In this document: positions 5,412 through 43,538 of the stretch, piece by piece
Position numbering within the stretch: the first letter of the stretch is position 1
How the letters are laid out: each line of letters starts with the position of its first letter
IMG/VR virus record: IMGVR_UViG_3300029267_002218
Location: 1 to 43,538 of that record
Source: a virus
Length of the DNA stretch: 43,538 bases
Reading direction: 5' to 3' (one strand)
Notes under the pieces: model-generated
What the model saw: only the letters and a program-made list of their open reading frames with translations
The model's database searches: none
What the model was told of the DNA's origin: nothing
Position numbers and translations under genes: made by a program

Positions 5412-5654
5412 CTAAAGATCCTTGGCAACGCCAAACCAGAAATCTTTTTCCTTCTTGCTGATCGGAACTAATTTAGAAACCCAGTACTTTGGATCACACT
5501 CGTGTTGGAACTGAACTACGGCATAGCCACTCATATAGAAGCACTCGTTGTAATCAGCGACTTTCCCGCACTTCATACACGTCTCTCCACGGTGCTTCAT
5601 TTTATGCTTTTCCATAAATTCTTTTACACTATGTTCTCCAACCAGCTTCAGCAT
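5412..5654 (-). CDS. Small zinc-binding protein
   Basis: An 80-residue protein with CMKCGKVADYNEC and a later HEC, which could bind one zinc ion. No family is recognised. The start overlaps the ParB-like gene's stop as TAATG, and GGAG precedes it, so the two are probably translationally coupled. It lies between the DNA-modification and packaging genes. Function unknown. Confidence 0.65.
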   Translation of the reverse strand: MLKLVGEHSVKEFMEKHKMKHRGETCMKCGKVADYNECFYMSGYAVVQFQHECDPKYWVSKLVPISKKEKDFWFGVAKDL

Positions 5655-6364
5655 TACTTTACATCTCCAATAATATTTCTATCATCAACCTGATTGAGTG
5701 CTTGGATCATTGCCTCAATAGGTAAAACATACGAGACATTTCGAGGCTTCTCGTCGGGATAAAGTACCTTTTTAAAGCGGTCAATTTCGTCTTCAAACAT
5801 ATTGGCAACTTCGACGGGTAAGTCAAATTTCAATACTTTCCACTCAGTTTCCCCCCGAGTATTTTTGTCCGAAGATTGCTCCTCGTCCTCTTGGGCTTCA
5901 CCGGCTTCCCAATCAAATTCTAGCATCTTATTGAAGTTATCGAGTTCATGCTCGTCGTAAGGCATTGTCTCGCATAGCTCATCGACGGTGTACGTGTCTT
6001 GAAGTCCGGCAATGATCTTGGCTAATTTCAAGTTGTCCGTTTGAAATTTTGTCTCATTGGTTTCGATGGCCAAACGTTCGGCTTCATGCTGTGGAACCTT
6101 CCCCATGTTAAAGGCGTGAGCGTTTTTATACTCTAAATCCTTCATTACTTCGAAGCGATGGTTTCCGTTGCACACTTCAAAGTATCCGGTGTCGAGTTCA
6201 CGCACGATGATATTCTCAACCTGACCGTTGCGCTTAAAGTTATTCATTAAGTCTTCTTTTAGCTTTTTGTACTGATCCGACTCCATATCCTTGTAGTTCC
6301 AACCGGCAGGAACCAGCTTCTCAATAGGGATATCAATAAAACCTTTTTCAAATTTCTTTTTCAC
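5654..6364 (-). CDS. ParB/Srx-fold protein
   Basis: A 236-residue protein whose first ~110 residues follow the ParB N-terminal pattern: IDIPIEKLVPAGWN, GQVENIIVREL, then the nucleotide-binding loop CNGNHRFEVM and HEAERLAIETNE. The C-terminal part has an acidic linker and a helical domain. The chosen start is GTG at 6364, which overlaps the dpdA-like stop as GTGA and has GAGGAG seven bases upstream. A longer TTG start at 6388 is possible but less likely. ParB/Srx proteins bind or hydrolyse nucleotides or DNA. Coupling to the base-modification genes suggests a DNA-directed role, which is inference. Confidence 0.78.
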   Translation of the reverse strand: MKKKFEKGFIDIPIEKLVPAGWNYKDMESDQYKKLKEDLMNNFKRNGQVENIIVRELDTGYFEVCNGNHRFEVMKDLEYKNAHAFNMGKVPQHEAERLAIETNETKFQTDNLKLAKIIAGLQDTYTVDELCETMPYDEHELDNFNKMLEFDWEAGEAQEDEEQSSDKNTRGETEWKVLKFDLPVEVANMFEDEIDRFKKVLYPDEKPRNVSYVLPIEAMIQALNQVDDRNIIGDVK

Positions 6365-7242
6365 CAGTTGACTCCTCGTGCTTTCCAAAGTTTTGTTAAA
6401 TATATTTCATAATCTCGTTGTGCTTCCATTGACGACATTAGCTTTTGAGTTGACGCATCCCTTGACCGTTGGCCATTAAAAAGCTCAGGGTTAACTCGAT
6501 GCTTAATGTAGTTTTTCTTTGTCGGTGTCACCTGTTTAAGCATACCGTTATCAAGCACAATATGAGTTCCATAACGCAATGGCGCAGTCCACGTCGTTGA
6601 ATCTACAGAATAAAAAGGATACTTATTAACAATGTCTTTATTGGTTAGTGCAAAACCGTGAACTTTAATTCCTTTACTATAGCAATATTTCAGCATTTTC
6701 ATGTAGGGGAGAGTTACTTGTTTTGCTCGAAGACCCTCCAGGCCAATATAGCCACTAGTTGTGCTGTCGCAAAGATCAGTGAAGTTTTCCCACGTTGACT
6801 TTTCCGAGTCCATGCCAGTTGAGTGCATAACCGGAATACACTTATCCAGTACTTTCGCAAACTTCATTTCTCCGCGCCATCTTTTCACGGTCGAATAGCC
6901 AACGATAGCCCCGATATCCAACTCGACAAAATAAGATATCCGGTCGTAGTTTTTAACAACCCACTTTAAGTAATTCTTCCAGTATTTTTCTGGGTCTGGC
7001 ATGTCCTTCGGGTCTTTGCCGTTATGGTGGGCGGCGGTTGAGTTTCCGGTATAGCCAAAGAACGAGTGTGCGCCTGAGTCCACGGTTATGATGCCTTGAT
7101 GTCCTTTATCAATCGAAAGTTTCTCAAGCATCTTATCGGTATTTTTCCGGTAGAAATAAGTACAAAAAATGTTATCCGTTGCCTTTGGCACGATGTCGTA
7201 ACTATTTAAAGTTGTCTCCATGCCGGCGAAGTAAACTATCAT
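6361..7242 (-). CDS. dpdA: DpdA-like DNA 7-deazaguanine transglycosylase
   Basis: A 293-residue TIM-barrel protein of the tRNA-guanine transglycosylase superfamily, in the branch that exchanges guanine in DNA for a 7-deazaguanine base. Visible motifs are VDSGAHSFF (D55), FVELDIGAIVG (D109), GYIGLEGLR, and KVHGFALTNKDIV followed by YSVDSTTW (D214). The two Asp-Ser motifs match substrate-binding and catalytic positions known in TGT/DpdA enzymes. The tRNA-TGT cluster CxCxxC is not seen. The start at 7242 overlaps the glycosyltransferase stop as TGATG. A TTG at 7278 would add 12 residues. Co-occurrence with folE, queD and queE strongly supports DpdA over an unrelated barrel. Confidence 0.84.
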   Translation of the reverse strand: MIVYFAGMETTLNSYDIVPKATDNIFCTYFYRKNTDKMLEKLSIDKGHQGIITVDSGAHSFFGYTGNSTAAHHNGKDPKDMPDPEKYWKNYLKWVVKNYDRISYFVELDIGAIVGYSTVKRWRGEMKFAKVLDKCIPVMHSTGMDSEKSTWENFTDLCDSTTSGYIGLEGLRAKQVTLPYMKMLKYCYSKGIKVHGFALTNKDIVNKYPFYSVDSTTWTAPLRYGTHIVLDNGMLKQVTPTKKNYIKHRVNPELFNGQRSRDASTQKLMSSMEAQRDYEIYLTKLWKARGVNW

Positions 7243-8333
7243 CAAATAAGACCCATCGTTTTTAACTTTATATACCAACTGTTATCATGGCGATCTGCAA
7301 TCTCGATAAGTTTGTTGTTTGCTTGACCCCAAAGTAATTTACGAAGTTGAGACTCGGCATCCCTTAATGACTTATTGTCGTACAAGCATTCAGGGTGATC
7401 CTTTAGCTCATAAGGAAAATCTTTCCACTTGGGATATAGCGGTTTACAGCCGAACGTTACCGCCTCAAGAAGAGTCCACGAAACCCAATCTTGAATAGCG
7501 CAATTGAACTGAACGTCAGCCGCACCTAGCAATTTATAATAAGTTTCCTTATTGGAAGTATCGACTATTTCGAAATTTTTTAACTGATCACTCATTGCAT
7601 ACGCGCGTAGTGATGCCGAAGGGTCGTTGGATAGCTTATCGCGTGGCTTGACCAGCTTGAAATTAATGTCTGGACACTTTTCAACTAAATCCAAGAAGAA
7701 GTGAGGGTTTTTTTCTGCGTCGAATCTTGAGCTAAACAGTACAAATCTTTCTCTTTGCTCCTTTTTGTGATGTCCATATTCTTTTAAAAGCATTTCCTTG
7801 TTCAACGGCAATCCACTTAGCTTTAAGCTGTAGTCATTCCATCCCGCCTCAAGTGCCAATTTAAGCAATATTGGAGAGGTGACAAACACGTAGTCGTAAC
7901 CAGTGGAAAAACCTTTTTCAACATCTCCGATCCAATAGCGCATAGTGTAGGTAAAATCAGAATCGTCGATGCTTTGAGCGTGCATGAAACAGCCAATTTT
8001 AAACTTTACCCCAGTGATATCCCTTATATAGAACAAAGATTCAATGCCAGGGTGCCAGAAGTCCTCGGTATAGATCACGTCTCCATCGGTCAACGTTTCG
8101 TCTTCGATAAAAGTCATCACCTCATTTACCTGATCCATGGCCCAACGTGACCGAGAGAAAGCGTCAACAACAGAGCCGGTCTTGATTTTGCCTGATGTCG
8201 GTCGCCCCTCAACCCTAATGAAGCGAACGCCGAGCTTTTCGAAATGGCTTTCTGCCCATCCCCCTTTTTTGCTCATTAACGACGTGTATCTTTCTTCATA
8301 AGGTTCAAGTGGTAGGTAAAAAAGTTTACTCAT
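7242..8333 (-). CDS. GT-B glycosyltransferase (GT4-like) in the deazaguanine cluster
   Basis: A 363-residue protein with the two-lobed GT-B layout. The C-terminal lobe has SRFDAEKNP at residues 202-210, a stretch of GT4 enzymes that contacts the sugar-nucleotide phosphate, and later WTLLEAVTFGCKPLYP, which resembles the donor-binding EX7E region. It probably transfers a sugar from a nucleotide donor. The start overlaps the kinase-like gene as ATGA, and the stop overlaps dpdA as TGATG, so all three are probably co-translated. This suggests the acceptor is the modified DNA base. A surface-glycan acceptor is the alternative. Confidence 0.78.
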   Translation of the reverse strand: MSKLFYLPLEPYEERYTSLMSKKGGWAESHFEKLGVRFIRVEGRPTSGKIKTGSVVDAFSRSRWAMDQVNEVMTFIEDETLTDGDVIYTEDFWHPGIESLFYIRDITGVKFKIGCFMHAQSIDDSDFTYTMRYWIGDVEKGFSTGYDYVFVTSPILLKLALEAGWNDYSLKLSGLPLNKEMLLKEYGHHKKEQRERFVLFSSRFDAEKNPHFFLDLVEKCPDINFKLVKPRDKLSNDPSASLRAYAMSDQLKNFEIVDTSNKETYYKLLGAADVQFNCAIQDWVSWTLLEAVTFGCKPLYPKWKDFPYELKDHPECLYDNKSLRDAESQLRKLLWGQANNKLIEIADRHDNSWYIKLKTMGLI

Positions 8334-8899
8334 AAGTATTTCTCCGAGAATTTTTCAAGGACATCGTAACACCGAACCTTGACATCAAGATCGATCCTCA
8401 CCATGTTCTCGAACGTTATATTTGTGGTGTAAAATTTAGAAACCGCCTTTTTGATAACGTCGCTCTTATAACGACTTCCATCACTGAAATAGTAACAGGT
8501 ATCCGGCATTGAATAGATGGTGTCGTAGGTTTTCATCCACTCGTGACAGATCCAATAGACGTTTGACGATGGCCTAACGTCTTTCAGCTCGCATACCCAC
8601 TGATAAAAGTGAAATAAGTCCATTGATGTCATCTCGCATAACAGAAAATCGACTTTGTTCTTTGTTACCTCTGCAGTCTCACGCGCCAATTGATCAAAGA
8701 TAAAATGCAATCTCGCTTCGGGACATGACTCAAGAAGTTCTGGAGGGAATGGCTCATCGTTGGCCATGTGACCTGAGTTGTCGTAAGGCATATTTTGGAT
8801 TCTGAAACTTTTACCCTGTTTAGTTAGCCCGGAAGCAATCATGTAAAGTGACGACGTTTTTCCGGTGCAAGAATTTCCGTAAAAGGCGATCTTTTTCAT
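8330..8899 (-). CDS. P-loop nucleotide kinase-like protein
   Basis: A 189-residue single-domain P-loop NTPase. Walker A is GNSCTGKTS at residues 8-16, and DFLLCEMTSMD may supply the Walker B/Asp region. Size and layout resemble small nucleotide, nucleoside or DNA-base kinases. It is ATGA-coupled at both ends, to the methyltransferase and the glycosyltransferase. P-loop kinases that act on modified bases in DNA are known in hydroxymethyluracil phages. A similar role here, or activation of a precursor, is inferred from the neighbourhood. Confidence 0.72.
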   Translation of the reverse strand: MKKIAFYGNSCTGKTSSLYMIASGLTKQGKSFRIQNMPYDNSGHMANDEPFPPELLESCPEARLHFIFDQLARETAEVTKNKVDFLLCEMTSMDLFHFYQWVCELKDVRPSSNVYWICHEWMKTYDTIYSMPDTCYYFSDGSRYKSDVIKKAVSKFYTTNITFENMVRIDLDVKVRCYDVLEKFSEKYL

Positions 8900-9513
8900 A
8901 GCTCAATAATGAATAGGTTTCGTGTTCTATTCTCTCCATAAGGATATTTGTCGACAACTTCCCCAAGCCATTTATAGTTAAGCCTTTTATCCAAGCAGAA
9001 CTCAACAACAGGGTGTGTCGCGTATTTCTGGATATTGCTCTCAAGGATCAGATAATTTCGTCCACGACTAACCAACTCTTGATAAAACGCCTTTTTGTCT
9101 TCGACGTAGTCATCGACCGAACAGCAAAAAACAATATTGAAGGTTCCGTGAACGTGATCAAGGTCGTTCAAGAATGCAACTTCGGTAAAATGTATATTAT
9201 TAAAGTCCCTTATCGCCTTGGCCGTTTTAACTCGATCAGGATTAGTGTCAACGCCGACAACTCTCCTTGCTCCAAGTTGATGCGCATAAAAACTGAGTGA
9301 TCCAATGTGGCAACCAACGTCAAGAATAGTTGTGTCAACCAAACTACTTATTCCTATTTGAGCAAAGCGATCCTTGGTTTTCCTTACGGCCTTCATGCCC
9401 TTGACAGGTTCAAGGTAAATTTCACCATAAATCTCTTCACCTAAAGATGCGGTATGAGGTAAACCGCCACGACCGTACTCGTTGACCAACTTTAAAACTT
9501 CTTCTTTAGTCAT
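8896..9513 (-). CDS. Class I SAM-dependent methyltransferase
   Basis: A 205-residue Rossmann-fold methyltransferase. Motif I is ILDVGCHIGSLS (65-71 core), the acidic end of strand 2 is VVGVDTNPDRV (D89), and the strand 4 region is FNIVFCCSVDDYV. No DPPY/NPPY motif of N-directed DNA methylases and no PC-dipeptide motif of C5 enzymes is visible, so it more likely methylates a small group or a modified base than ordinary A or C. It is coupled by ATGA overlap to the kinase-like gene. AGGGAT precedes the start. Confidence 0.78.
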   Translation of the reverse strand: MTKEEVLKLVNEYGRGGLPHTASLGEEIYGEIYLEPVKGMKAVRKTKDRFAQIGISSLVDTTILDVGCHIGSLSFYAHQLGARRVVGVDTNPDRVKTAKAIRDFNNIHFTEVAFLNDLDHVHGTFNIVFCCSVDDYVEDKKAFYQELVSRGRNYLILESNIQKYATHPVVEFCLDKRLNYKWLGEVVDKYPYGENRTRNLFIIEL

Positions 9514-9515
9514 AA

Positions 9516-9770
9516 CTATCCCTTTATTTTGGTATGATCTTCCAGCCCAAGCAATTCGCCATCTTTTTTTCTTTTAACCCTTGGCCTTTTGGCTCTTATT
9601 AGGTTTTGCTCCTTGGCTTTTCTTTTCTCTCTTTTTTTTCGCTTGGTAGCATCATGAAAGACATAGAGAACACCATCTTTTTTTCTTTTAACCCTTGGCC
9701 TTTTGGCTCTTATTAGGTTTTGCTCCTTGGCTTTTCTTTTCTCTCTTTTTTTTCGCTTATCTTTATTCAC
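9516..9770 (-). CDS. Highly basic repeat protein
   Basis: An 84-residue, extremely Lys/Arg-rich protein made of two identical repeat units (KREKRKAKEQNLIRAKRP, then RVKRKKDG) with a 38-residue period, separated by VLYVFHDATKRK. That linker is identical to a part of the glycerophosphodiesterase encoded at 15192-15818. The GTG start at 9770 is chosen because GGAG lies seven bases upstream. ATG starts at 9794 and 9824 are alternatives. The charge suggests nucleic-acid binding. No family is recognised and the intact function is doubtful. Confidence 0.5.
   Translation of the reverse strand: MNKDKRKKREKRKAKEQNLIRAKRPRVKRKKDGVLYVFHDATKRKKREKRKAKEQNLIRAKRPRVKRKKDGELLGLEDHTKIKG
9559..9644. repeat. 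86-bp direct repeat, copy A
   Basis: Identical to 9673-9758 with a 114-bp period, in frame inside the basic repeat protein gene. Perfect identity at the DNA level points to a recent duplication. Confidence 0.97.
9635..9680. repeat. 46-bp segment shared with the GDPD gene
   Basis: Exactly identical to 15560-15605 in the glycerophosphodiesterase gene and read in the same frame. It bridges the two 86-bp repeats, overlapping copy A by 10 bases and copy B by 8 bases. This is what a template switch at short homologies would leave. Confidence 0.95.
9673..9758. repeat. 86-bp direct repeat, copy B
   Basis: Second perfect copy of 9559-9644. Divergence begins immediately outside both ends. Confidence 0.97.
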
Positions 9771-10092
9771 TTGATTTCTCCACGTATGCGCCATTTTCTC
9801 CGTCTTCCAATACTTCGGCAGCATCAAGGTCAAAGTTATTGATTAGCCAAACAGCGATTTCTTCACAGGATTGATTGACGAAATCTACAGGCTCCGATCC
9901 AATGTGCTGTCGAATCCTTCGCTTCAACGTGATAATCTCGGTTTCCCTGTCAAGGTGTCCGACCTTTTTCCAAACCTTAATATGAAAGATGTGCCTGTGA
10001 GGCAATTTCAAGAAGCTGACATCCTCAATGGGACAACCTGCCCACTTGTGGATCCCTTCGACTCGCAAGGTACAAATTACTGTTACTTTCAT
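9763..10092 (-). CDS. Conserved-type phage protein, possible diverged QueD-like T-fold
   Basis: A 109-residue protein starting MKVTVICTLRVEGIHKW. It shows a pattern reminiscent of QueD/PTPS proteins: an early His (H15), PHRHIFHIKV (H32, H34) like the QueD HGH zinc motif, EIITLKRRI, then NQSCEEIAVWL and AAEVLEDGENGAYVE, which parallel QueD's NPTAENMAHYLL and VRLWETPTCSAEV. It lacks a clear catalytic Cys at the expected place. The start is TAATG-coupled to the SEC-C gene with a GGAGGGAG SD. Phage proteins of this appearance are usually annotated hypothetical. The T-fold link is my inference. Confidence 0.6.
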   Translation of the reverse strand: MKVTVICTLRVEGIHKWAGCPIEDVSFLKLPHRHIFHIKVWKKVGHLDRETEIITLKRRIRQHIGSEPVDFVNQSCEEIAVWLINNFDLDAAEVLEDGENGAYVEKSSE

Positions 10093-10358
10093 TAAACTCC
10101 CTCCATTATTCTTTTCTCATGGTCTTTTACACGTCGAACGAAAGCATCCAAACCAACGGCATCTTTCTCAAGTACATACCGTGGCTTACCGTGACAATCT
10201 TTGATCTTTTTCCCACTTTTACAGGCGCAAGGATAATTTCTGATCTTGCGCAAAGGGTTAAGGACGAGTCCTTCAGGAGCTTTGTAGAAAATCCCAAAGG
10301 TCAATACATGAAAAATTGCGACTAAATACTTCCAATATAAATAAATTTTATCTTTCAT
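10092..10358 (-). CDS. SEC-C motif zinc-binding protein with hydrophobic N-terminus
   Basis: An 88-residue protein. Residues ~5-25 form a hydrophobic, possibly membrane-associated helix (LYWKYLVAIFHVLTFGIFY). A SEC-C zinc motif follows: YPCACKSGKKIKDCHG, that is CxC-x8-CH. SEC-C tails bind zinc and mediate protein contacts, for example in SecA. The gene lies right after folE with GAGGT upstream of its ATG. Its role in the cluster is unknown. Confidence 0.7.
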   Translation of the reverse strand: MKDKIYLYWKYLVAIFHVLTFGIFYKAPEGLVLNPLRKIRNYPCACKSGKKIKDCHGKPRYVLEKDAVGLDAFVRRVKDHEKRIMEGV

Positions 10359-10360
10359 TG

Positions 10361-10972
10361 TTACCTCAATGCTGAATATAGTTCGTTTCTAACATCGGCA
10401 CTTTCTTTAAAAGCACCACTTATTGCACTCGTTCTCGTGTCGGCTTGGGTATGCTCAATCCCTCTCATCCTCACGCACTGATGAGTCAAGTCCATAACAA
10501 CGGCGACATCTTCGGTCTCGAGAATTTCACACAGCTTGGAGTGAACGTCTTGGGTTAGTCGTTCCTGTATTTGAGGACGACGCGCATAGTAATCAACTAT
10601 TCGATTAAACTTGGATAACCCTAAAACCTTATCCTTTGGAATATAAGCAACATGAGCAAAGCCAATCATAGGCAAAAGATGGTGTTCGCACATTGACTTA
10701 ACATCAATTTTTCTCTCGATTAGCATTTGATCATACCTGAATTTGTTCTCGACAACCGTTATCTTCGGGAAGTTTTCTTCTTCCAGGCCAACGAAAATCT
10801 CATCGACAAACATCTTGGCAACTCGTTTAGGTGTGTCGCACAAAGAATCGTCAGTCAGATCGACTCCTAAGGTCTTCAATATGTCTTCGAAACAATTCTC
10901 TATTATGCTTTTTTTTGCACTCGCCGATATCACTGCCTTTTTCTCTTCCAACGTAAACCTCCCTTGGTGCAT
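10361..10972 (-). CDS. folE: GTP cyclohydrolase I
   Basis: A 203-residue FolE converting GTP to dihydroneopterin triphosphate, the first step to 7-deazaguanines. Zinc ligands are all present: C95 and H98 in MCEHHLLP, and C166 in HQCVRMRG. Further hallmarks are DTPKRVAKM, GLSKFNRIVDYYARRPQIQERLT and DTRTSAISGAF. Length fits complete bacterial enzymes. The start lies inside the 3' part of the csrA-like gene, so the two overlap by 122 bases in different frames. Only a weak GAG precedes this ATG, so translation may depend on the upstream gene. Confidence 0.96.
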   Translation of the reverse strand: MHQGRFTLEEKKAVISASAKKSIIENCFEDILKTLGVDLTDDSLCDTPKRVAKMFVDEIFVGLEEENFPKITVVENKFRYDQMLIERKIDVKSMCEHHLLPMIGFAHVAYIPKDKVLGLSKFNRIVDYYARRPQIQERLTQDVHSKLCEILETEDVAVVMDLTHQCVRMRGIEHTQADTRTSAISGAFKESADVRNELYSALR

Positions 10973-11084
10973 CTATGATGCACTTAACTCTACTTCCTTT
11001 CCTTTGCATTTTTATCGCTACCCTCTTTCCCCCGAAATCAACCATCAAGGTGTCGTTAAAGGTCGCATGGATAACCAACGCCAT
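10851..11084 (-). CDS. csrA: CsrA/RsmA-family RNA-binding regulator
   Basis: A 77-residue protein whose first ~48 residues align by eye to the whole CsrA fold: MALVI at strand 1, DTLMV like ETLMI, GKRVAIKM, KGSRVKCIIDAP like KGNQVRIGVNAP, and REVYVGREK like KEVSVHREE. The C-terminal RNA-contacting Arg of the VHRE motif is kept, while the Arg pair in strand 1 is not. A basic ~28-residue tail runs into folE. The ATG at 11084 overlaps the queE stop as TGATG and has AGGAG seven bases upstream. A GTG one codon earlier is also possible. CsrA binds GGA-containing hairpins and controls translation. Its targets here are unknown. Confidence 0.76.
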   Translation of the reverse strand: MALVIHATFNDTLMVDFGGKRVAIKMQRKGSRVKCIIDAPREVYVGREKGSDIGECKKKHNRELFRRHIEDLRSRSD

Positions 11085-12103
11085 CACTGCTCTCCTAGTA
11101 TCTTGTGAAGCTGTATTGATGCCCTATATTCAGGATGTTCTCGAACCGCTTCAACAACCTGAAACGTGTTAAATTCTAAATTTGGCCCATCGACGGGCTG
11201 TAGAAATCGGTGTTCACATTTAAAATTCTTCCAATGCGAAATGGCTGTTTCCTCGCTGATTGAAGGGAACAGTAATTTAAGGTCGTCGCAGTAGGTCAAT
11301 TTAGTTTTGCTAGGTGATTGCTTCGGAGACATGGAAATATGGTCAATGTATCTCCCCCTAGTTCCAAGATCAATACTACCGTTTGTTTCCAAGTGAATCT
11401 CATAGCCATCTTTTTTTAGCGCAAAGAGTAAGTTGTTATCAAGCTGTAACAGTGGCTCACCACCTGTGATCACGACTAATTTGCACTTTCCTGCAATTTT
11501 GCTAATTTCTCCCAAAATATCATTTACGCTGTAGCGGTCTTTTCCAGAAAAGAATGTGTCACAAAAATGACATACAGATTTCGCCCTATCCTCTTCTTTG
11601 TTGCTCCATTTATTACAGCCCGATAACCTTAAAAAAATCGCATTCCTTCCAGAATGACTTCCCTCGCCTTGAATTGAGTTGAAAATTTCAGTAACAACGT
11701 ATTTTTTTGGCGATTCAAATTTCCCAGTGTCTTTATTCCTCCCGTTAAGACCTTCTTCTTGCGCGTGCAAGTTGTTTTCCGCAGCATTGACATACTCCAG
11801 GTTTTCAACTGAGTTGTTCGACTTATCTCCGTCCTTGTGGTTTACATGGTCGCGGCAGCCAAGTGGAGACAAGAAGTGTTCGGCAACCAATCTGTGTACT
11901 TTAAGAGTGTTCGTTTTATTTTTAACAGTTATCCCCGTTAATAAGTACCCATTTTTATCTGGCCATTGCTTCAATTTTCTTTCTGGATAACTAAACACCC
12001 TACCATCTGAATAGGTAACAACTTTATGCAATGCCCTAACTTCTCCAAGGTTTGAAACTTGGTATCCTTGAAACCCTACAATATTCTCCCAAAATTCCTT
12101 CAT
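11084..12103 (-). CDS. queE: NUMOD4/HNH domain fused to 7-carboxy-7-deazaguanine synthase
   Basis: A 339-residue fusion. Residues 1-60 are NUMOD4-like (FWENIVGFQGYQVSNLGEVRAL). Residues 68-115 are an HNH module (VHRLVAEHF, DHVNHKDGDKSNNSVENLEYV) as in homing endonucleases. From residue 135 the chain is a full QueE (YVVTEIFNSIQGEG, radical-SAM cysteines C163, C178 and C181 in the CX14CX2C form, GGEPLLQ), which turns carboxytetrahydropterin into CDG. No ATG, GTG or TTG start is apparent at the QueE boundary, so QueE seems to be made only as the fusion. ATGA overlap couples it to queD. Confidence 0.92.
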   Translation of the reverse strand: MKEFWENIVGFQGYQVSNLGEVRALHKVVTYSDGRVFSYPERKLKQWPDKNGYLLTGITVKNKTNTLKVHRLVAEHFLSPLGCRDHVNHKDGDKSNNSVENLEYVNAAENNLHAQEEGLNGRNKDTGKFESPKKYVVTEIFNSIQGEGSHSGRNAIFLRLSGCNKWSNKEEDRAKSVCHFCDTFFSGKDRYSVNDILGEISKIAGKCKLVVITGGEPLLQLDNNLLFALKKDGYEIHLETNGSIDLGTRGRYIDHISMSPKQSPSKTKLTYCDDLKLLFPSISEETAISHWKNFKCEHRFLQPVDGPNLEFNTFQVVEAVREHPEYRASIQLHKILGEQ

Positions 12104-12525
12104 AGTTTTACCTCGGCGCTACAGGTTGGAGTTTCCCATAACCGCACTTTAAATATTTCGATGTCACTTCCTTTGAACAGGTCACGGCAGATTTCATGCA
12201 ACAGGTAATGGGCCATGTTTTCTGCGGTAGGATTAAATTTACAGATAAATGGTTCCTTGGCGCGTGGAATAGATTTCAGGGCGTCGATTGTCTTAACATC
12301 CTTCTCATAAACTAAAGTGTTGTGATCCCAGAAATTGTCGATCCAAGAACCAACACGTTTTTTAATTTCAGAAAAATCGATCACGCGACCTATTTCGTCT
12401 AACGTTTTGGCCCGCGCGAAAATTTCGACACGATAACGATGGCCATGTAACGTGCGACATTTTGACTCGTGAAGGTGGACACGATGTCCGGCGTCGAATT
12501 GAATTTCTTTGGTGATCTCGTACAC
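12100..12525 (-). CDS. queD: 6-carboxytetrahydropterin synthase
   Basis: A 141-residue QueD making 6-carboxytetrahydropterin from dihydroneopterin triphosphate. Zinc ligands are H14 (FDAGH), H27 and H29 (LHGHRY). The catalytic Cys is C23, DH is at 67-68, and the C-terminal NPTAENMAHYLL and LWETPTCSAEV are typical. The GTG start at 12525 is preferred: AGGGGG lies six bases upstream, and the protein then begins YEITKE as in other QueDs. ATG at 12576 and TTG at 12600 would add 17 or 25 basic residues without an SD. This is the first gene of the long leftward operon. Confidence 0.93.
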   Translation of the reverse strand: MYEITKEIQFDAGHRVHLHESKCRTLHGHRYRVEIFARAKTLDEIGRVIDFSEIKKRVGSWIDNFWDHNTLVYEKDVKTIDALKSIPRAKEPFICKFNPTAENMAHYLLHEICRDLFKGSDIEIFKVRLWETPTCSAEVKL

Positions 12526-12829
12526 TGGTCGCCCCCTGTCGGTGTTTTTTCTTGCCCGCTTCGTTGTTTTTATCATTGCACTGACGTGGCGAAAACTCAA
12601 ACATTTTTAAAAGGACATAAACTGTCCAAGTCGTCAACCTCCGTAAAAGTGCACTAAATGCCAAAATAAAACATTTTCGCTGTGTCAATCGGGTATTTGT
12701 TACATTGTTTAAGCACCGCGCCATTTCGACAGATCGCATTAAGTCGTGGTATTCGTGCGCGTACACGTTCCATTTTATTTCAAAAAAATTCATTCAACTA
12801 AACGACAAACTCACAACAAAGGAGAAACG
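12526..12829. promoter_or_regulatory. Divergent intergenic control region
   Basis: About 300 bases separate queD (leftward) from the small-protein block (rightward). No convincing gene is seen, although open frames run back from the neighbours. It must contain the promoter of the long modification/structural operon and probably that of the rightward early block. An inverted repeat lies at 12613-12627. A TTGACA on the minus strand at 12688-12683 lacks a good -10 box at normal spacing, so no promoter is called exactly. Confidence 0.55.
12613..12627. promoter_or_regulatory. Operator-like inverted repeat GGACA-N5-TGTCC
   Basis: A perfect five-base arm repeat (ggaca taaac tgtcc) in the divergent control region. 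It has the size and symmetry of a half-helical-turn operator and might be bound by the XRE-type regulator encoded at 13872. The pairing with that protein is inference. Confidence 0.35.
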
Positions 12830-13108: not shown

Positions 13109-13339
13109 ATGAGATTTTTAACCAATAAAAAAGTAAACAAAATCAGGCAACACTCAACGGGCGCGCTTGAGCGGTTTTATTTTCATTATTTTCCCCACGA
13201 AATCTCGTGGAGCGAAATGAAGGAAATAAACCCAGAGCTTGAAGAGATGATGTTAATAATCAAAAAAACACTTGCTGCACGACAGCTAAAAACAAGGAGC
13301 AACCATGAACACACTAGTAAAACGTTTCAACGAAATTAA
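13109..13339 (+). CDS. Hypothetical small protein
   Basis: A 76-residue basic protein starting three bases after the previous stop, with AGGTGA as a weak SD. It overlaps the next gene by 35 bases. No motif is recognised. Tight packing and frame conservation make it likely but not certain. Confidence 0.55.
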   Translation: MRFLTNKKVNKIRQHSTGALERFYFHYFPHEISWSEMKEINPELEEMMLIIKKTLAARQLKTRSNHEHTSKTFQRN

Positions 13340-14671: not shown

Positions 14672-15056
14672 TGATATCCCTCACCATGTCCACTGAACAA
14701 ACAAACTCACCGACAAACCCTGCCGTCTTAACACCTTCCAAGAATAAAATTTGATCCAATAAATGCTTTTGTTTTTTATTTAAAGTCGATGGCACCTGTT
14801 TAAGTAACCATTGATAACGCTTCATGACATATTTATATTCTGGCTCTGATTTCACTTCAAAGGCGTAAAACATTGAGTTGTACCAGAAAAAAATGTCGGC
14901 TAAACCTTTCTTAACATACGGCGACCGGTGCTTTTTCATTACTCCGCCGTCGAAAAATCCTGAAGGAGCCGTTTTGATTACTTCGGACATGGGGAAGTAG
15001 GACAAGAAATCCAATATTCCCCTTTCAATGTCTGATTCTTTAATCGGCACCGCCAT
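14646..15056 (-). CDS. VRR-NUC domain nuclease
   Basis: A 136-residue PD-(D/E)xK nuclease of the VRR-NUC type. Catalytic residues are in GLADIFFW (D54) and AFEVKSE (E67, K69), followed by a helix with the family's Gln-rich style and GVKTAGFVGEF. Stand-alone phage VRR-NUC proteins are thought to process branched DNA during replication or recombination. SD AAGGAT. Overlaps the 50-residue coiled-coil gene. Confidence 0.84.
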   Translation of the reverse strand: MAVPIKESDIERGILDFLSYFPMSEVIKTAPSGFFDGGVMKKHRSPYVKKGLADIFFWYNSMFYAFEVKSEPEYKYVMKRYQWLLKQVPSTLNKKQKHLLDQILFLEGVKTAGFVGEFVCSVDMVRDIIEKKTNSK

Positions 15057-15192
15057 CGTAGCTATCCTTTAACATCTGATTTTCATACTTTAGGTCTTCG
15101 ATTTCGCTTTTCAACTCCTCGATTTCGCCAAGTAGTTCATTGATCCACTTGTCTTTTTCACGGCATTGAATCTCAAGTTCTGATTTGCTCAT
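15040..15192 (-). CDS. 50-residue coiled-coil protein
   Basis: A short gene with start ATG at 15192 overlapping the GDPD stop as TAATG, and an end that overlaps the VRR-NUC start. The product has a perfect heptad run (INELLGEIEELKSEIEDL) and would dimerise. No family is recognised. The overlap signals on both sides and the heptads are the support. Confidence 0.6.
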   Translation of the reverse strand: MSKSELEIQCREKDKWINELLGEIEELKSEIEDLKYENQMLKDSYDGGAD

Positions 15193-15818
15193 TAGATAAA
15201 ATCCAGTTTTAAATTGGCTTCACGAAGCCATCGTTGGAAGTCGTCAGCATCACGTTTGAAAACCTTTCGGTATTTTTTCTTAAACATCATAAAGGCAATG
15301 TCGTGACCAGTTTTGTCTCGATGTTCTTTAACGCGTTTAATTATTTCCCTCTTGGCTGATGTCGATAACAATTTCTTGATTTCGACGCGAATAGGAACTG
15401 TTATCGGAAACGACTCAAACCACTCCATTAGTTGCTCAAATTTCGGGATGTATTGGTCTGTCCCTTCCAAGCGCAGCTGATCTATTTGAAAGGCGGTAAG
15501 TTCGTAAATTGATTTCTTTTTCAGGTGATCTGGTGCCGTTGGGCATAACCGCTTAATCGTTTTTCGCTTGGTAGCATCATGAAAGACATAGAGAACACCA
15601 TCTTTGCTTTCAACGACATCGAACTCCCAATACTTGAAGTCATCAAAATGCTGATATTTTAGCCCAGCCTGAAATGATCTCCATGAGTTTTCTGGTTTGA
15701 CGTGATCACCATAAAGCCGATGGCCCGAGTTAGTCCAACCACCCTTCTTTTTAACTTTGTAAAATGCTTTTCTAAAAAACCACCCTATTCCGCTTAAAAT
15801 GTCCCATAAGAATCCCAT
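15192..15818 (-). CDS. Glycerophosphodiester phosphodiesterase-like protein
   Basis: A 208-residue GDPD-fold protein: GHRLYGD (H33, R34), KPENSW (P42-N44), YWEFDVVESKDG (E65, D67) and VFHDATKRK (H80, D81) match the catalytic pattern of GDPD enzymes, which hydrolyse glycerophosphodiesters. The first ~20 residues are hydrophobic and aromatic (FLWDILSGIGWFF) and may anchor it to the membrane. Start 15818 is chosen for its AAAGGAGG SD. A longer frame to 15872 has none. A 46-bp piece around residues 72-86 recurs in the gene at 9516. Confidence 0.86.
   Translation of the reverse strand: MGFLWDILSGIGWFFRKAFYKVKKKGGWTNSGHRLYGDHVKPENSWRSFQAGLKYQHFDDFKYWEFDVVESKDGVLYVFHDATKRKTIKRLCPTAPDHLKKKSIYELTAFQIDQLRLEGTDQYIPKFEQLMEWFESFPITVPIRVEIKKLLSTSAKREIIKRVKEHRDKTGHDIAFMMFKKKYRKVFKRDADDFQRWLREANLKLDFI
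15560..15605. repeat. 46-bp donor segment in the GDPD gene
   Basis: Identical to 9635-9680. Here the sequence belongs to an intact conserved motif (the HD catalytic segment), so this copy is presumably the donor. Confidence 0.95.
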
Positions 15819-15819
15819 G

Positions 15820-16023
15820 TCAGCCTCCTTTGGCTTTTTCTTTATCGTAACATTCGAGGCACACCGGCCCATAGTCTCGGTGCATCACTGATTGAGGTTC
15901 GTTGTCGATGTCGTAGTAAATTTTTCCGTCGTAAGTTGTATGGCAGTCAAGTCGCGCCCAGATATGTTTCAAACAAAACGGACACTTCCGGTTAGGTGGT
16001 TCATTTTTCCTTCGCCATCTCAT
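15820..16023 (-). CDS. Zinc-finger protein
   Basis: A 67-residue protein with CPFCLKH near the N-terminus and CLECYDKE near the C-terminus, a four-Cys zinc site. Start overlaps the MazG stop as ATGA. Function unknown. Confidence 0.7.
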   Translation of the reverse strand: MRWRRKNEPPNRKCPFCLKHIWARLDCHTTYDGKIYYDIDNEPQSVMHRDYGPVCLECYDKEKAKGG

Positions 16024-18977: not shown

Positions 18978-19703
18978 TTATTCCTCGTCGTGATCCAAAC
19001 AATTGAACACCGACTTCACCTCGGTTTCAATCTCTTTTTTTCTTTCTTCTTTGGCGCGTCGCTCATTTTCCAACTGTTCGGCGGCGTCAAAATAATCTTC
19101 CCAAACAGAAACAAACGACGAAAATTGTTTAATATATTTTTTGTCGGTTCCTTCGGCTTCACACTTCGCCGCGTAGAATTGAACTGCAGTCATAACACGG
19201 TCGTATATTTCTTGGCTCTTGATGATTGATTTAAGTTTTGTGATGCCTTTCTTCTTTCCTTCCTTGCGAGGATATTGAGCATAAATTTGATCCAGATCTG
19301 GTGTATATATATTTATATTATTTCTTTTATTCTTTATTTCTTTACTTCTTGTTTGTGGTTGATTACCTGTTGGTTCAGTGTGCGCTGGCTGGTTAGGCGC
19401 TTGGTATGAGTCGTAGTTAGTTATTGTTATTATTGAGTTTTTGTTGGTTGTTTTGATGGTTAGGTTGTTGGTTAGTTGTAAACGCCTCAAAGATGTCCTT
19501 ATCGACTGTTCTGATAACCCAGTTTGACGCGCCAAATTCTTCCTTCCTGTTATCAATTGACCGCGCATTATTCTTTCACCCTTCCATTCTTTTTCTTCAT
19601 GGTTGGCCATCAATATTAAATGAATGAAAAGGGAAAATGTTTTAGGATCGTCGGCCCAATCCCACTTGATAATTCTTCGGTGTAGTTTAATCCATCCTTC
19701 CAT
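18978..19703 (-). CDS. Replication initiator / replisome organiser (O- or DnaD-like)
   Basis: A 241-residue protein. The N-terminal winged-helix region (GWIKLHRRIIKWDW, TFSLFIHLILMAN, GQLITGRKNLARQTGLSEQ, SIRTSLRRLQ) is typical of phage replication initiators. A Pro/Thr/Asn-rich linker follows, then a helical C-terminal domain (DQIYAQYPRKEGKKKG) that would contact the helicase. ATG 19703 gives the usual MEGWIKLHR start, with AGGA nearby. An upstream frame to 19739 is less likely. First gene of the leftward replication block. Confidence 0.82.
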   Translation of the reverse strand: MEGWIKLHRRIIKWDWADDPKTFSLFIHLILMANHEEKEWKGERIMRGQLITGRKNLARQTGLSEQSIRTSLRRLQLTNNLTIKTTNKNSIITITNYDSYQAPNQPAHTEPTGNQPQTRSKEIKNKRNNINIYTPDLDQIYAQYPRKEGKKKGITKLKSIIKSQEIYDRVMTAVQFYAAKCEAEGTDKKYIKQFSSFVSVWEDYFDAAEQLENERRAKEERKKEIETEVKSVFNCLDHDEE

Positions 19704-20459: not shown

Positions 20460-20699
20460 ATGGAAAATTTTCAACTAAAAGAAGTTGTCGTTGCGCAAGC
20501 CGTTAAAGTGGTAAACCTAGAATCCATTAACGAAACGCTGCACGAAGAAAAGTACAAGCTAGAAAACAAAAACTGCGCCCTTCAAAGATGTGTCGATGAG
20601 CAATCGAACACCATTGAGGCAATGCGCCGGTCAATGCATAAAATGGAAGCACGGATCGAAGACTTAGAAGGAGGCGAAGATGTCGAACCAACTCACTGA
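20460..20699 (+). CDS. Small coiled-coil protein
   Basis: A 79-residue protein, almost wholly heptad-like (LESINETLHEEKYKLENKN, MHKMEARIEDLEGG). GTAGGAGG precedes the ATG. It overlaps the RecT start by 20 bases. No family recognised. Confidence 0.7.
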   Translation: MENFQLKEVVVAQAVKVVNLESINETLHEEKYKLENKNCALQRCVDEQSNTIEAMRRSMHKMEARIEDLEGGEDVEPTH

Positions 20700-21585
20700 G
20701 GTAAAAAAATTCCTAAACGACGGAAAAGATTTAAAGCAAACAGTCGCCGACAACTACATTGAGATGATCATGCGAAAGTATCCAGACATTCAAACGTCGT
20801 CACTTATCAATCATATCAACTTGGTAAACTATACCGGAGCAAATCCTTTTAATGGCCAAGTTCATTTCGTTGCATTTTTCGACAAACGATTGAACTGCCG
20901 CGTTGGATCGACGGTCTTTAGTTATCGTTTTTTCGAGGATAGGGCAAACCAAACAGGCGAGTTTAAAAATTGTACCTGTGAAATAGGCAAGGCCGAGTAT
21001 TTTGATCCCAACAAAGGCGAAGACATAACCACGTTGAGGGCGGTTGCAACAGCATACCGAAAAGATCGAGAGCCGGTCGAGTTTGTCGCTTGGTACCCTG
21101 AGTTTAAAGACACGACCAAGCCGTTATGGAGGACAAAGCCTCATACCATGTTAAGGAAATGTGCCATCGCCGGAGCGTTGCGGTCGGCGTTTCCTGAAAC
21201 TCTAGGGAATATGTATATCGGCGAAGAGATCGGAGACGAGCAACAGGATAACGAGATCAAGATCGTACAAAATGAGATCGACGTAAAGACCGCCAAAGAG
21301 GAAGCCATTAAAGAAGAAGAGATGTTGGAGCGTATTAAGACATCGAAGCAAAAGGCCGTCGTTGTTGAGGGGTTGACCGGAATGATTAACAACAAGGTTA
21401 AAGGCATGGAGTTGCCCGACAAAGTTGCTTGGATGCAAGAGCACGCCAAAGTTGATAGCGTTGCGCGGTTAAAAGAAAAAACGTTGAAGGAATTAAGGGA
21501 AATTTTCGATCACCTGTATTCAATTAGAAAAGAACCAATTGTCCTCAAGGACAGAATAACGACAGACGAACTACCGTTCGATTAA
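20680..21585 (+). CDS. recT: RecT/Bet-family single-strand annealing protein
   Basis: A 301-residue recombinase. The core pattern is NPFNGQVHFVAFFDK, TLRAVATAYRKDREPVEF and PLWRTKPHTMLRKCAIAGAL, then RSAFPETLGNMYIGEE, as in RecT/Red-beta proteins that bind and anneal single-stranded DNA. An acidic helical C-terminus (about residues 190-300) would contact SSB. AAGGAGG SD. No exonuclease gene sits next to it, which is unusual. Confidence 0.88.
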   Translation: MSNQLTEVKKFLNDGKDLKQTVADNYIEMIMRKYPDIQTSSLINHINLVNYTGANPFNGQVHFVAFFDKRLNCRVGSTVFSYRFFEDRANQTGEFKNCTCEIGKAEYFDPNKGEDITTLRAVATAYRKDREPVEFVAWYPEFKDTTKPLWRTKPHTMLRKCAIAGALRSAFPETLGNMYIGEEIGDEQQDNEIKIVQNEIDVKTAKEEAIKEEEMLERIKTSKQKAVVVEGLTGMINNKVKGMELPDKVAWMQEHAKVDSVARLKEKTLKELREIFDHLYSIRKEPIVLKDRITTDELPFD

Positions 21586-43046: not shown

Positions 43047-43511
43047 TTATGGAAGGTTAATATGAAGTACGGCTAGACCATCGGCACCGGCCACACTATC
43101 CCATTTTGCATAAGCTGAAAGGTCAATGCAATCAGTCGCGTCTTGAGACTTTCTGAAAGCACCGGCACGTTCTGCACCTTCGGCTACTGCGCGAACAAAT
43201 ACAGGATCGCCAGGAGCGACGGCTTCTTCTACTTTTACATAGATTTTACCTTGCTCAAGAACGGAAATCCCTTCTTTGTCTGCTGGTTGAGCACCTTCTT
43301 CAGTGTGTTCGTGAACGATAACACCGGCAAAAATATCGGCAACCAAGCTTAACGCTTTACGTTGCTTTTCTTTGTCAGTACCTAGTGTTACGCCAAGACC
43401 AAACTCAAGCCCTGCGCCTTCGGCATACTTTGAAACAACAGTTCTCATGGAACTATCGGCAAGCATACCTTCAAATGCAATTTCTTTTCTTTCGTTGAAT
43501 ACCGTTTGCAT
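43047..43511 (-). CDS. Capsid decoration/structural cement protein
   Basis: A 154-residue protein of the type encoded just before DUF2184 capsids: SMRTVVSKYAEGAGLEFGLG, ADIFAGVIVHEHTEEGA, and GKIYVKVEEAVAPGDPVFVR. It probably clamps capsomers from the outside. TAGGAGG SD. The 5' part lies in the terminal repeat, so a truncated copy of its start is also at 1-117. Confidence 0.82.
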   Translation of the reverse strand: MQTVFNERKEIAFEGMLADSSMRTVVSKYAEGAGLEFGLGVTLGTDKEKQRKALSLVADIFAGVIVHEHTEEGAQPADKEGISVLEQGKIYVKVEEAVAPGDPVFVRAVAEGAERAGAFRKSQDATDCIDLSAYAKWDSVAGADGLAVLHINLP

Positions 43512-43538
43512 TGATGCCTCCTAAATTTTATTTTTGTA
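43395..43538. repeat. Terminal direct repeat, right copy
   Basis: Exact copy of bases 1-144. Only one copy should be counted in the circular map. Confidence 0.97.

Follow-up and report, generated by a model that had tools for sequence, protein, structure and literature searches.

A 28-bp piece of a GDPD-family gene between two 86-bp repeats of a small basic phage gene: probable trace of a single template switch

Within the window, that is, the complete virus record (43,538 bases) analysed here, an ORF for a small basic protein carries two identical 86-bp copies of a purine-rich segment, separated by 28 bp that are also found in a GDPD-family gene 5.9 kb away. We conclude that this arrangement is probably a real mutation in the phage lineage, made by a single template-switch event in which DNA synthesis would have left the basic gene, copied a short piece of the GDPD gene and returned to DNA that it had already copied.

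Results

Structure of the repeat, the insert and the junctions

The first copy of the repeat in the coding direction (KRKKREKRKAKEQNLIRAKRPRVKRKKDG) lies at 9673-9758 and the second at 9559-9644, both on the minus strand. Exact-repeat comparison with a repeat finder and a base-by-base script showed that the copies agree at 86 of 86 bases, that the match is maximal and that its period is 114 bp. By the same means, 9635-9680 was found to equal 15560-15605 at 46 of 46 bases, again a maximal match. The insert proper, which separates the two copies, is 28 bp long (9645-9672, minus strand); it encodes the VLYVFHDAT part and is identical to 15570-15597 inside the GDPD-family gene (28/28 bases). The GDPD match spans 46 bp rather than 28 because the GDPD gene also has 10 bp and 8 bp of the repeat ends. 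These junction microhomologies are the 10-bp TTTTTCGCTT at 9635-9644, common to the repeat copy and GDPD positions 15560-15569, and the 8-bp CCATCTTT at 9673-9680, common to the repeat copy and GDPD positions 15598-15605. Thus, the original prediction of an exact, in-frame 46-bp identity, of a perfect 86-bp repeat with a 114-bp period and of junction homologies of 10 and 8 bases is confirmed throughout.

Neither the two 86-bp copies nor the insert and its GDPD counterpart differ by a single mismatch. Furthermore, the repeat copies, the insert and the GDPD segment all lie on one strand and in one reading frame in both genes, with K-R-K and K-D-G as the junction residues in each. Chance alone gave exact direct repeats of at most 14-18 bp in 30 simulated first-order Markov genomes; the longest exact repeat of the real genome is 16 bp, leaving out the 86-bp pair, the 46-bp pair and the 144-bp terminal repeat. 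A chance origin of the 86-bp and 46-bp matches is excluded. Purines make up 83% of the 86-bp segment on its coding strand, which places it among the most strand-biased 0.03% of the genome's 86-nt windows.

The chimeric ORF and its neighbours

The feature lies in an ORF for a K/R-rich protein of 92 aa (MAHTWRNQVNKDKRKK...LEDHTKIKG), which runs on the minus strand at 9516-9794, from ATG (9794-9792) to TAG (9518-9516). The interval first proposed, 9516-9770, does contain the feature, but the start of the ORF falls outside it. GGAG stands just 5' of the ATG, and the genes are tightly packed in a row: the start overlaps the end of the gene at 9763-10092, and 2 bases separate the stop from the ATG of a methyltransferase-like gene. 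The likely ribosome site of the latter, AAAGG, is inside the last codons of the chimeric ORF. The 92-aa protein has no match in Pfam or PHROGs, and neither collection recognises a GDPD domain in it.

Deleting 114 bp in silico yields a lysine/arginine-rich protein of 54 aa; the added 114 bp therefore keep the frame and give 92 aa in place of the presumed 54. With a spacer 1 or 2 bases shorter an early stop is met, and both other frames likewise terminate early. An in-frame chimeric basic protein, as had been claimed, is indeed what the ORF encodes, with the frame kept at both joins. Given that the other frames stop early and that the 3' end carries the likely ribosome site of the next gene, the kept frame fits a gene in use. 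By length alone, the frame would be retained in about one case in three, and hence its support for gene use is weak. Most likely, the 92-aa protein works like the 54-aa form, as a basic protein of unassigned role, or is tolerated.

The adjoining gene at 9763-10092 (minus strand) encodes the conserved phage protein phrog_17812, which occurs near GTP cyclohydrolase I (folE) in the window and in seven of seven related loci (L004-L010); in Chryseobacterium phage MA9V-3, folE lies about 2.4 kb from the phrog_17812 gene. The converse fails, as the phrog_17812 protein is present in just 2 of 52 folE-pattern loci. A role for this protein in the 7-deazaguanine DNA-modification pathway is possible. The consecutive folE, queE-like and queD-like genes at 10361-12600 suggest that the phage DNA carries deazaguanine modifications. 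Among them, a 339-aa ORF (11084-12103, minus strand) fuses a NUMOD4-HNH homing-endonuclease-like part (residues 3-111) in frame to a QueE-like radical SAM enzyme (residues ~133-339). Pfam identified no transglycosylase (DpdA); the gene at 6361-7278 is an unmatched candidate.

Donor and recipient

The GDPD-family gene at 15192-15872 (minus strand) encodes 208-226 aa, depending on the choice of start. Its match to PF03009 in Pfam (E 1.7e-9) scores 38.6 bits against a curated cut-off of 23.6, which places it in the family. The segment at 15560-15605 (minus strand), known by its exact identity to the chimeric gene and by its relative in another viral contig (L001), encodes KDGVLYVFHDATKRK around the conserved HD motif. 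The L001 homologue is 53% identical, has VVESRDGFLYVFHDATKRKTIKRL at the corresponding place and retains the motif VVES(R/K)DG(F/V)LYVFHDATKRKTIKRL. Since the motif is kept there, the segment is native to GDPD, with the basic gene as its recipient; the protein sequences thus support the GDPD gene as the likely donor and the chimeric gene as the receiver. A search for other out-and-back donor pairs in the genome found total homologies of up to 19-21 bp, and the GDPD gene, which is one among many potential donors, does not have the highest. Homology alone therefore does not explain the choice of donor, which would have been partly luck. A uniquely favourable donor was accordingly rejected, other out-and-back pairs having equal or longer total homology.

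Search for relatives

No single-repeat relative was found in IMG/VR with the GDPD protein, the terminase, the major capsid protein, a neighbouring gene, the methyltransferase or two degenerate DNA patterns representing the basic protein, in collections from which near records may be absent. Protein and DNA searches of GenBank phages did not find the basic gene, nor did searches of bacterial genomes with the capsid and GDPD proteins; matches to a MAHTWRN pattern were rejected as unrelated short frames. The nearest phage by structural genes is L011 (capsid 74%, terminase 71%). The block at 6361-10092, which includes the chimeric gene, has no counterpart in L011, as compared with its positions 1-2400. 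The genes flanking this block (5654-6388 and 10092-10358) do have homologues there.

Among 70 other viral loci (~0.7 Mb, a small and unplanned sample), no tandem pair was seen whose spacer matches another gene; what these loci did contain was tandem repeats, a single duplicated region and promoter-like repeats at dispersed positions. The A/T-rich, near-identical dispersed repeats of L010 (TTATGTTATACTCTTTATATAAGAT; 1088-1117, 13269-13294, 14868-14900 and 19403-19433) and the 44-bp A/T-rich dispersed repeat of L008 (2053-2096 and 15348-15391) are probably repeated promoters.

A single out-and-back template switch

The proposed event starts from an ancestor with a single copy of the purine-rich segment, which would have encoded the 54-aa basic protein. 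While DNA was being synthesised or a fork repaired, the 3' end under extension would leave the end of the repeat, pair with the GDPD gene by the 10 bp TTTTTCGCTT (or by the 8 bp, if synthesis ran in the opposite direction) and copy 28 bp. It would then return by pairing through the 8 bp CCATCTTT (or the 10 bp) at the far end of the segment just copied, whereupon synthesis would go on. In this way, a single event could leave both a 28-bp templated insert and an 86-bp tandem duplication, in frame and undecayed. We infer the ancestor, the in vivo origin and replication as the process, as well as the direction and age of the event.

This model, consisting of the one-copy gene, 28 nt of GDPD and a second pass over 86 nt, rebuilds the sequence of the window exactly; it works equally well if the opposite strand is the one synthesised, the 10-bp and 8-bp homologies then being swapped. 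For random joins between the gene and the genome, microhomology of at least 8 bp has a probability of 3.2e-4 and that of at least 10 bp a probability of 2.8e-5, which is improbable enough to indicate that pairing guided each of the two joins. Three features of the template-switch class are present: an insert identical to sequence elsewhere, microhomology at each join that is above chance but too short for homologous recombination, and a return point behind the departure point that leaves a perfect tandem copy. Hence, of the earlier description as "recent microhomology-driven copying", the copying stands as the most economical reading, given the exact reconstruction and the rare microhomology, while "recent" has the zero mismatches as its sole basis.

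Extreme purine tracts can stall DNA synthesis, and the purine-rich 86-bp segment is a plausible cause of stalling here. At both the basic-gene site and the GDPD site, no hairpin beyond shuffled controls was detected; stalling driven by hairpins was therefore rejected. The reading of the segment as a shared regulatory element or mobile repeat was also rejected, given that it is part of the coding sequence of both genes and has no further copy in the genome, and a diversity-generating retroelement was set aside as the copies are without mismatch.

Alternative explanations

The same sequence could have been built by at least two separate events, in which a tandem duplication (or an illegitimate crossover between phage copies) was followed by a second recombination that brought in the GDPD piece, possibly through RecT annealing. 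The phage does encode a RecT/Bet-like single-strand annealing protein (20680-21585, plus strand; Pfam RecT, E 1e-20; PHROG 252, E 1.5e-17), and phage annealing proteins are known to relax the demand for homology (PMC3945230). Minimal efficient pairing has been put at 23-27 bp for Red-beta and at 31-34 bp for RecA (PMC3945230). The joins observed here, of 8 and 10 bp, are under the Red-beta range. Moreover, two rare events would be invoked where one is enough, and the copies and the insert are mismatch-free, with no trace of an intermediate. We thus consider this course of events unlikely. The help from RecT that the original prediction had raised is not borne out by these lengths, and for the comparable junctions of E. 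coli the explanation given is that replication switched templates (PMC3161906); RecT would not appear to be needed for this event.

The virus is known solely as an assembled record, and the scar might instead be an artefact: the repeat may have been misassembled, or a chimera may have formed during whole-genome amplification or library preparation. Chimeras of phi29 amplification do form at short complementary stretches of up to 21 bp; nevertheless, in the study that describes them 85% were inverted, and direct joins less than 10 kb apart made up 11 of 475 (PMC1855051). An artefact would have to place two direct joins 5.9 kb apart in one molecule that came to dominate the consensus, and to keep the reading frame as well, so that an amplification chimera fits poorly. 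As for the assembly, the window has a perfect 144-bp terminal repeat (1-144 and 43395-43538), and homologues of the genes that flank it (127-1317 and 43047-43511) are adjacent in the middle of the L011 contig (7450/7471). Because these homologues adjoin, the ends of the window are best read as a circular-assembly overlap and not as physical termini. An overlap of 144 bp suggests that the assembler was able to span over 86 bp and would thus have resolved the repeat. Overall, an artefact is, in our judgement, quite improbable. We give still less credence, indeed very little, to the proposal that the lengthened protein was selected, either for a second basic module on a copied loop or for reuse of the catalytic HD motif of GDPD. 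The frame is kept at both joins and a K/R-rich module is doubled, as selection would have it; yet only one GDPD motif was acquired, the barrel and the remaining catalytic residues being absent, and an in-frame survivor by drift explains the gene equally well.

Discussion

Taken together, our results make it most likely that the single template switch proposed above is a fresh example, in a phage, of a known class of mutation, the microhomology-mediated templated insertion with tandem duplication. The cleanness of the scar is unusual, but accidents of this type have been described before in other organisms. From undecayed scars of two switches it can be seen that a single mutation is enough to add a module to a phage gene, with no need for long homology or mobile elements. 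Furthermore, the combination of a tandem repeat, a short insert found elsewhere and microhomology at both ends is a signature by which such events could be tallied in phage genomes and their frequency measured. A bolder view, that out-and-back switching between genes is a recurrent route of in-frame growth for small phage genes and that a fresh enzyme-motif graft into an unrelated basic protein is here still in use, strikes us as highly doubtful. This case alone overturns nothing.

The closest parallel is the long-distance template switching, or MMBIR, of E. coli, whose amplification junctions have 3-30 bp of microhomology and several joins per event, some of them direct, and have been read as repeated template switches during replication (PMC3161906). 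As in the phage scar, each join has short homology, an event comprises more than a single join, and a return to copied DNA leaves a duplication; direct orientation is possible. The E. coli rearrangements, however, are on the scale of kilobases and were selected in starving cells with known parents, whereas the phage has a 28-bp insert and an 86-bp duplication within one gene, whose ancestor we infer. The templated insertions linked to MMBIR in eukaryotes (PMC8421209) also consist of a short stretch from elsewhere with microhomology on both flanks, although they depend on eukaryotic repair enzymes and the present case comes from a bacterial virus. Multiple displacement amplification gives chimeras joined at similarly short complementary stretches, but these are mostly single inverted joins made in vitro (PMC1855051), as opposed to two direct joins in frame. 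Finally, coding sequence is likewise altered by switching in the protein innovation described for yeast (PMC8604942); there, inverted repeats are involved and up to five neighbouring residues are replaced, while the direct switch proposed for the phage would have added 38 residues.
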